From Sulfurimonas sp. CG01_land_8_20_14_3_00_36_23 (GTDB lineage: Bacteria > Campylobacterota > Campylobacteria > Campylobacterales > Sulfurimonadaceae): a DNA stretch of 38,187 bases. The position numbers were made by a program, and so were the translations under genes. The stretch is from NCBI GenBank assembly GCA_002781365.1, contig PETN01000013.1, positions 1-38,187 of the forward strand. The letters are read 5' to 3'. Shown here one piece after another: positions 16,230 through 20,571 of the stretch. A model generated the notes under the pieces. That model had not been told where the DNA came from and did not search any database. It was given only the letters and a program-made list of their open reading frames with translations. Each line of letters begins with the position of its first letter. Within the stretch, counting starts at the first letter, position 1.

Positions 16230-16844
16230 TTACTTTATACTTTCCCAGAAAAAATCCACATGCTTCTCAAACTGTGTTGAGAGACTATTCGTAGATAAAG
16301 AATCAAACCGCAAAAGAGTCACCTGAAGTCTGATATAGAAGAGGGTGGATAAAAATTCATAAGAGATTATCATCGGGTCGTAAGAGCGGATGAGATTGTT
16401 CTGCATCATTACAAAAAAGCCCTCTGACAATACTTTGACATTCTTGTCGTGAAACTCACTCATAAACTGCTCTCTAAGCTCTTTGTTTTGTAGTAGCTCT
16501 ATCATGAGTAACCTAAACATATTTTCGTTGCTCTTATCAAATGTAATGAGTTTATACTGCATCGCAAACTTATGTAAAAAAGGTTTTCCTTTTAAAGCCA
16601 ACTCTCTGATATCCTCATTTTCAAAAGAGAAGGGCGATGAAAATATCTCTTTTGAAACCTCTAAAAATATCTCCTCTTTATTTTTGTAGTGATTGTAGAT
16701 TGCACTCTCTCGAATCCCTACCGTTGAAGCTATTTTTCTGACACTTGCACCCTTGTAACCATACTCACAGAAGAGGGCACGGGATGCTTTTAGTATCTTT
16801 TCTTTTGTTCCGCCTTTTTTGTTAGACGTCGTGTTTTCGGGCAT
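16230..16844 (-). CDS. TetR/AcrR-family transcriptional regulator
   Basis: 204 residues. The N-terminal HTH is at about 14-60 (KEKILKASRALFCEYGYKGASVRKIASTVGIRESAIYNHYKNKEEIF), the standard TetR pattern with G-Y-x-x-A-S-x-x-x-I and YNHYKNKEEIF. The helical C-terminal ligand-binding/dimer domain has no close named match. AAAGG seven bases before the ATG supports the start. Its promoter (-10 TATAAT on the minus strand, 16894 to 16889) is embedded in an array of four GAAC-N4-GTTC-type sites, strongly suggesting autorepression. No efflux or target operon is adjacent; the only divergent neighbour is the RNase P RNA. Confidence 0.88.
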   Translation of the reverse strand: MPENTTSNKKGGTKEKILKASRALFCEYGYKGASVRKIASTVGIRESAIYNHYKNKEEIFLEVSKEIFSSPFSFENEDIRELALKGKPFLHKFAMQYKLITFDKSNENMFRLLMIELLQNKELREQFMSEFHDKNVKVLSEGFFVMMQNNLIRSYDPMIISYEFLSTLFYIRLQVTLLRFDSLSTNSLSTQFEKHVDFFWESIK

Positions 16845-16865: not shown

Positions 16866-16972
16866 GAACGTATGTTAATGTAATCAGAATTATATATGAA
16901 CAGTTGTTAATTTAAACTTACACAAAAAGAACGAGTGTTCATATTATGAATTAAACAAGTGAACGATTGTTC
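16866..16972. promoter_or_regulatory. array of four phased GAAC-N4-GTTC operators
   Basis: Sites: GAACGTATGTTA 16866-16877, GAACAGTTGTTA 16898-16909, GAACGAGTGTTC 16929-16940 and GAACGATTGTTC 16961-16972. Start-to-start distances are 32, 31 and 32 bp, about three helical turns, so all face the same side of the DNA. Site 2 falls just upstream of the tetR -10 box and site 1 just after the expected start. Site 4 lies where the -35 region of an rnpB promoter would be. The TetR product is the obvious candidate ligand. Confidence 0.75.
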
Positions 16973-17010
16973 TTTTTGATATTAGAACCTATTTTAAAGG
17001 AACAATTGTG

Positions 17011-17347
17011 TACTATTTCGCAGGTACAACAGATAGATACTTGGGTCAAACCAAGAGGAAAGTCCGAGCTGCTGTAAGACAGTGTTCCATTTAACTAATG
17101 GCCGTAGTAATACGAGGGAAAGTGCAACAGAGATTAGACTTCCGCTTTAGGGCGGTAAAGGTGAAAAGGTGGTGTAAGAGACCACCAGTCTCTATGGCAA
17201 CATAGAGAGCTTGAAAACCCAACATGGCAGCAAGAAACAAATGGTTAGCGTCTTACATTGCTATTGTTTCGCTAGAGGCATACTGTAAAGTATGCAGTAG
17301 ATTAATGCTATCAAAACAAAACTCGGCTTATAGTTGTACCTGCTACT
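17011..17347 (+). ncRNA. rnpB: RNase P catalytic RNA
   Basis: Ribozyme that matures tRNA 5' ends. Diagnostic conserved blocks are present in order: GAGGAAAGTCCGAGCT near 17051, GGGAAAGTGCAACAGA near 17116, GGTAAAGGTGAAAAGGTGG near 17153, and the closing P1 strand. P1 pairs GCAGGTACAAC (17020-17030) with GTTGTACCTGC (17333-17343). The exact ends are uncertain by several bases. A copy of the iterated motif begins within five bases of the P1 3' strand. Confidence 0.93.
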
Positions 17348-20477: not shown

Positions 20478-20571
20478 TTATTATTTTCAATAGAATATAC
20501 ATTATGTTAATCATATAAATATAAACTACTTTGTAGTATAGTTTTGCTTATATAAAAGCATTGGACAAATG

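Follow-up and report, generated by a model that had tools for sequence, protein, structure and literature searches.

The window that we analysed, a stretch of 38,187 nucleotides from a Sulfurimonas genome, contains four palindromes of the form GAAC-N4-GTTC, placed at regular intervals in the gap between a tetR gene on the minus strand and the divergent rnpB gene on the plus strand. Which of the two genes do these palindromes serve, and what is their regular spacing for? A preliminary description, made from the letters of the window, had taken them for operators of the adjacent TetR protein, and had raised the possibility of a regulated transcription of rnpB or of a filament-like repressor complex.

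The operator array in the window

The four palindromes are present as described, at intervals of 32, 31 and 32 bp, two of them being perfect and the two others having one change (Table 1). A single GAAC-N4-GTTC with at most one mismatch is not rare, since 8 are observed in the window while 12.3 are expected. In the source genome, pairs of sites 20-48 bp apart are found at this locus and nowhere else, and the control with the reversed pattern gives 0. The significant feature is the phased cluster, and not the single copies of GAAC-N4-GTTC.

Table 1. Positions of the operators and of the neighboring features within the window
Feature	Positions	Strand	Remarks
Operator 1, GAACGTATGTTA	16866..16877		one change; kept in 26/28 Sulfurimonas genomes
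Operator 2, GAACAGTTGTTA	16898..16909		one change; beside tetR core promoter
Operator 3, GAACGAGTGTTC	16929..16940		perfect
Operator 4, GAACGATTGTTC	16961..16972		perfect
TetR/AcrR-family gene, 204 aa, putative cognate regulator	16230..16844	-	Pfam TetR_N PF00440 and AF2 model
Probable tetR -10 (TATAAT)	16889..16894	-	adjoins operator 2; from sequence
rnpB, RNase P RNA	17021..17346	+	Rfam RF00010, 231.9 bits
dif site, TTTCAATAGAATATACATTATGTTAATC	20485..20512	+	sole genome match of AATWTAYATTATGTTAA

The array does cover the tetR promoter, as had been proposed: operator 2 abuts the TATAAT on the minus strand (positions 16894-16889), and this flank of the operator is strongly conserved in 24 aligned arrays. 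In the Sulfurovum-like family f6, it is site 1 which lies within the spacer of a consensus-like tetR promoter (TTGAC...TATAAT). The tetR promoter holds an operator in both array types; as an operator overlaps or abuts the core promoter of the gene itself in Sulfurimonas and in f6, this geometry suggests that tetR is autorepressed. The array had also been said to cover the expected promoter region of rnpB, and this has to be corrected: it stops upstream of the core promoter of rnpB, its last site ending 49 bp before the start of the RNA. A degenerate fifth palindrome, GAACAATTGTGT, overlies the rnpB core promoter region at positions 17000-17011; it is out of phase (39 bp past site 4) and has no counterpart among the 28 Sulfurimonas tetR-rnpB gaps compared.

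Conservation with tetR and helical phase

We compared the locus with its relatives. The gap between tetR and rnpB is readable in 28 Sulfurimonas relatives, and the array is found in 28/28, with spacings of 32/31-32/32 (31-33 throughout), site 1 having decayed in two of them. In the aligned arrays the operator cores are conserved while most spacer positions are variable. The same picture is given by 17 further Sulfurimonas genomes, with an interval of 43 bp in one of them, and by some 50 named loci; a fifth site in phase is present in some cases. A phased array is also retained by the orthologous tetR of other families (40-65% identity at the protein level), and it is the neighboring gene which differs: f4 and f18 have an XerH recombinase there, f3 has a MutS protein, and elsewhere the genes are various. 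The rnpB gene adjoins tetR in Sulfurimonas and in two sister genera (g23 and g25) only, and is located away from it in f3, f4, f10 and f18. In the relatives without tetR, dif is present and the array is absent; the sole tetR-less Sulfurimonas with a readable rnpB (G023) has a normal rnpB promoter with no operators upstream. As the array follows tetR across families and is missing where tetR was lost, we concluded that it belongs to the TetR protein and not to rnpB. Conservation along with tetR is what the reading of the palindromes as operators of the adjacent TetR protein demanded, and the comparison of sequences supports this reading.

The possible regulation of rnpB transcription by the TetR protein has in its favor the short distance, in Sulfurimonas, g23 and g25, from operator 4 to the rnpB gene downstream of it. 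It is however contradicted by five families (f3, f4, f6, f10 and f18) which retain the array without an adjoining rnpB, by G023, which retains rnpB without the array after the loss of tetR, and by the end of the array being upstream of the rnpB core promoter. Since the array tracks tetR and not rnpB, we rejected an rnpB switch, and we hold this part of the preliminary description to be extremely improbable.

Two observations at individual loci may be mentioned here. One Sulfurimonas MAG (G435, locus L256) has a TetR protein 76% identical to that of the window, with no array upstream or elsewhere and no nearby dif, which suggests a relocation or an assembly fault. In one other Sulfurimonas relative, CRISPR repeats (CRISPR-DR4, L014:3034-3602) are found about 0.4 kb past rnpB.

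Across at least 16 genera, the spacings between neighboring operators fall, with few exceptions, on 21-22, 31-33 or 42-44 bp, which correspond to two, three or four helical turns. Typical values differ between families: about 32 bp in Sulfurimonas, 42-43 bp in the Sulfurovum-like f6 (where four turns, 42-44 bp, is the rule in most cases), 22 or 32 bp in the Nitratiruptor-like f18; spacings of 30, 34 and 63 bp are exceptions, each of them met in a single case. The resultant length calculated at 10.5 bp for 67 representative spacings is 0.944, a value which 0/5000 uniform draws reached; these spacings are not fully independent, but with the distinct values of each genus the resultant is 0.915 and the outcome is the same. 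Judged from these spacings, the constrained quantity is the rotational phase rather than the exact distance. We infer that the phasing is best explained by protein dimers aligned on one face of the DNA, so that the palindromes would be operators at which several dimers of the divergent TetR-family protein bind in helical phase. The one-face arrangement put forward in the preliminary description is supported by this comparison, and its remark that such an ordered array is unusual for TetR proteins was, in our judgment, right. The phasing would also allow a complex which is filament-like or cooperative.

The array at dif and the isolated sites around the origin

Each of the genomes scanned has essentially a single copy of the classical dif motif AATWTAYATTATGTTAA. 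The dif site has been located at 1,122,264 in the 2,201,561-bp chromosome of Sulfurimonas denitrificans DSM 1251 (Carnoy and Roten 2009, PMC2731167) and at 1,186,929 in the 2,562,277 bp of Sulfurovum NBC37-1 (PMC2731167); our matches in these two chromosomes (G368 and G307) coincide with the published coordinates, and the 28-mer layout of the dif of the window is identical to that published for S. denitrificans (PMC2731167). Wherever a single contig carries both tetR and dif, the latter lies on that side of tetR which has the array (56/56 genomes), and in 54 of these 56 its orientation relative to tetR is the same. The distance to dif ranges from 192 bp to 80 kb, with a median of 718 bp, and is within 2 kb in 44/56 genomes. 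In the families with the single recombinase XerH, f4 and f18, the interval from the array to xerH contains the difH motif GTTTGAAAATTATAGTTTTCAATACT (searched with up to one mismatch). When the genes within 10 kb of dif were clustered, TetR alone was common to f1, f4, f6 and f18, and TetR was near dif in 24/24 of the tetR-bearing loci examined. In the open-access literature searched, we found no TetR protein reported beside the dif of these bacteria.

Distances of 10-80 kb between array and dif are observed in L188 (G232), L189 (G424), G237, G396, G309 and G352. In G232 and G424 the gap consists mostly of genes without counterparts in relatives; such long gaps are probably due to insertions near dif.

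Measured from dnaA, tetR lies at 0.504 +/- 0.022 of the chromosome (range 0.460-0.545) in 29 genomes, nearly all of them complete. In the window itself the GC-skew switch is unclear (the cumulative curve peaks at 32.1 kb, at a distance of 11.6 kb from dif), hence the position of the terminus rests on dif and on the distances to dnaA in complete genomes.

It had been suggested to search the genome for GAAC-N4-GTTC in order to find other targets. Over the set of genomes this proved fruitful, isolated sites being enriched, but the draft genome from which the window comes shows no such enrichment by itself, neither with the looser pattern GAACRNNYGTTM (20/19 against 22/20 for the control) nor with the 14-base pattern TGAACRNNYGTTMA (2/1 against 2/1). 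Over 25 genomes, the 14-base form gives 223 strand-hits, arrays included, against 29 for the reversed pattern. Once the arrays and the double counts of palindromes were removed, 135 isolated sites remained in 29 genomes, 119 of them in the origin half of the chromosome and 16 in the terminus half; 41/135 are within 5% of dnaA and 0/135 in the terminal 20% of the chromosome. The probability of this bias under a uniform distribution is about 1e-20, a nominal value since related genomes share some sites; the bias is present separately in genera g1, g25 and g27 and in families f4 and f18. As a control we counted 59 permuted half-sites in two 200-kb stretches of G368, one around the origin and one around the terminus, which gave 8 and 8; hence composition is not the cause of the bias. 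With the true motif, this genome has three isolated sites at the origin, and its terminus has the array only.

The isolated sites are not promoters, as 54 of the 60 examined fall inside open reading frames. Several of them are kept at the same codon (the names of the genes were assigned by eye from the protein sequences): in ilvD in 9 genomes, one of which is from another family, in recJ in 7, in a 2-hydroxyacid dehydrogenase gene in 6 and in an endonuclease III-like gene in 3. In ilvD, 44 of the 388 codons with an invariant amino acid are also invariant as codons, while the codons of the site match the operator in 9/9. Under the observed codon usage, the chance that the amino acids at a site are spelled as the operator is 2-3% per genome. 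Among the complete Sulfurimonas genomes, the site is present in 8/11 for ilvD, 7/11 for recJ and 6/11 for the dehydrogenase, with nominal probabilities of 3e-10, 3e-10 and 4e-8; a look-elsewhere factor of thousands applies to these values, the sites having been found by motif search, and the conclusion on codons survives it. The origin-biased intragenic sites are under selection at the DNA level, beyond the protein code. Isolated sites distributed in this way are characteristic of proteins of the SlmA, Noc and RefZ type.

The Sulfurovum-like genomes of f6 (L118-L137) keep the dif-linked array, but the pattern used finds hardly any isolated sites in them. In f18 a site TGAACGAGCGTTAA is right beside dnaA in four genomes, and in the two that were read (L324 and L326) this site lies in a thyX-like gene.

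The TetR protein and its possible role

The protein scores 50 bits with PF00440 (TetR_N), for a cut-off of 24, which places it in the TetR/AcrR superfamily. Its AF2 model (mean pLDDT 87.8) has an ordinary TetR fold, with structure matches at Z 16-18, the top PDB match being 5ztc (Z 18). A Foldseek/VIA search with this model returned generic TetR matches and did not single out SlmA or RefZ, an absence which in such a list excludes nothing. The highest-scoring curated model is that of RefZ (NCBIfam NF037937), with 44.1 bits for a cut-off of 180; the SlmA model (NF007015) gives 23.3 bits for a cut-off of 120. As both scores are far under the cut-offs, we rejected membership in either group. Orthologs were found in 71/397 genomes of the class; the protein is dispensable, because several Sulfurimonas and Sulfuricurvum-like genomes are without it.

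We consider it rather probable, from the comparison of genomes, that this is an uncharacterised TetR-family chromosome-position protein, autoregulated through its array at dif, which would coordinate the segregation of the terminus, or division, with the chromosome. Its main job would be reading chromosome position, and probably not the switching of local genes. Presumably bound, in a cooperative way, to the array at the replication terminus beside dif, and also to several isolated intragenic sites flanking oriC, the protein might act on terminus segregation or on the control of the Z-ring and of division, as SlmA and RefZ do. A more ambitious form of this reading is possible, though we would put it forward with some hesitation: an unrecognised TetR system of the sulfur- and hydrogen-oxidising Campylobacterota would mark oriC by intragenic sites and dif by a four-operator array, couple replication and segregation to division, and supply the nucleoid-occlusion or ter-linkage function which this lineage is missing. 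In the literature searched we found no chromosome-linked division regulator of such a kind in Campylobacterota. If the reading is true, the TetR lineages recruited to control the chromosome in space now number three, and the effect of such site arrays can be tested directly on the natural one at dif; the helically quantised spacing makes cooperative binding on one face testable.

Terminus array and origin-flanking sites taken together match none of the known parallels (SlmA, Noc, RefZ, ZapT) exactly. SlmA, the TetR nucleoid occlusion factor of E. coli and Vibrio, shares the TetR fold and has palindromes which are spread over the chromosome and rare at the terminus. Here this holds for the isolated sites (0/135 in the terminal 20%) and not for the array, a conserved group of four sites standing at the terminus; the sites are also few. 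Sites of SlmA and of Noc are scarce in the vicinity of Ter, and artificial terminus arrays of them delay division in E. coli and B. subtilis (PMC4726725). RefZ, a TetR-family protein of Bacillus, binds a few palindromes flanking oriC whose placement is conserved (PMC6657595). Fold, small number and conserved placement around the origin (119/135; ilvD, recJ) are alike here, but there is no sporulation, and a phased array at dif is unreported for RefZ. MatP with its matS sites, and ZapT, a protein with a MerR-type regulator fold able to link terminus and divisome (PMC7188993), resemble our protein as terminus-bound DNA proteins that could link ter to division. They belong however to other protein families, and their numerous sites are scattered through the ter region, whereas here there is one compact phased array at ter, the other sites being near the origin instead of confined to Ter. 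Several facts count against the position-protein reading: the f6 genomes with an array and almost no isolated sites, the TetR of L256 without an array, a terminus array which is the opposite of what is expected for a pure nucleoid-occlusion inhibitor, the dispensability of the protein, and the low scores with the curated RefZ and SlmA models.

Some of these facts would suit a plain ligand-responsive autorepressor, acting on its own gene and perhaps on a few others, in which the phased sites serve tight cooperative repression and the vicinity of dif is inherited synteny. Ordinary autorepressors of the TetR family with tandem operators, such as QacR and EthR, have a divergent gene, operators over their own promoter and possibly cooperative binding. 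The operator in the tetR promoter of both array types (within the consensus-like spacer in f6), the ordinary fold and the near solitude of the array in f6 genomes all agree with this. The present system differs from QacR and EthR in the whole-turn spacing kept across families, in the linkage to dif and in the intragenic sites near the origin; a plain autorepressor leaves unexplained these origin-biased, codon-frozen sites, and also why, among neighbors of dif which change between families, tetR is the only one to stay. We regard it as rather unlikely. That the array acts on dif itself, as a landing site which would, for instance, position or activate Xer recombination or FtsK, or keep sister termini together, would account for a linkage which persists through two Xer systems, XerCD/dif and XerH/difH, with a consistent side and orientation of dif. 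Accessory sites of Xer recombination of the cer/psi type are however at a fixed distance from the core, unlike the 192 bp to 80 kb found here, and the copies flanking the origin are again left unexplained, so that we see little chance for such a terminus companion. A sensor of origin/terminus dosage would join isolated sites near oriC, titrating the protein, to an autoregulated gene at ter, the copy ratio being reported by this gene and the free protein reflecting the state of replication. This is very doubtful, as this analysis identified no downstream target and the some 2-10 sites per genome make for a weak titration.

One more occurrence of phased palindromes may be recorded: in a genome of family f15 which has no TetR ortholog (G050), two perfect GAAC-N4-GTTC lie 31 bp apart at L141:1512-1554.
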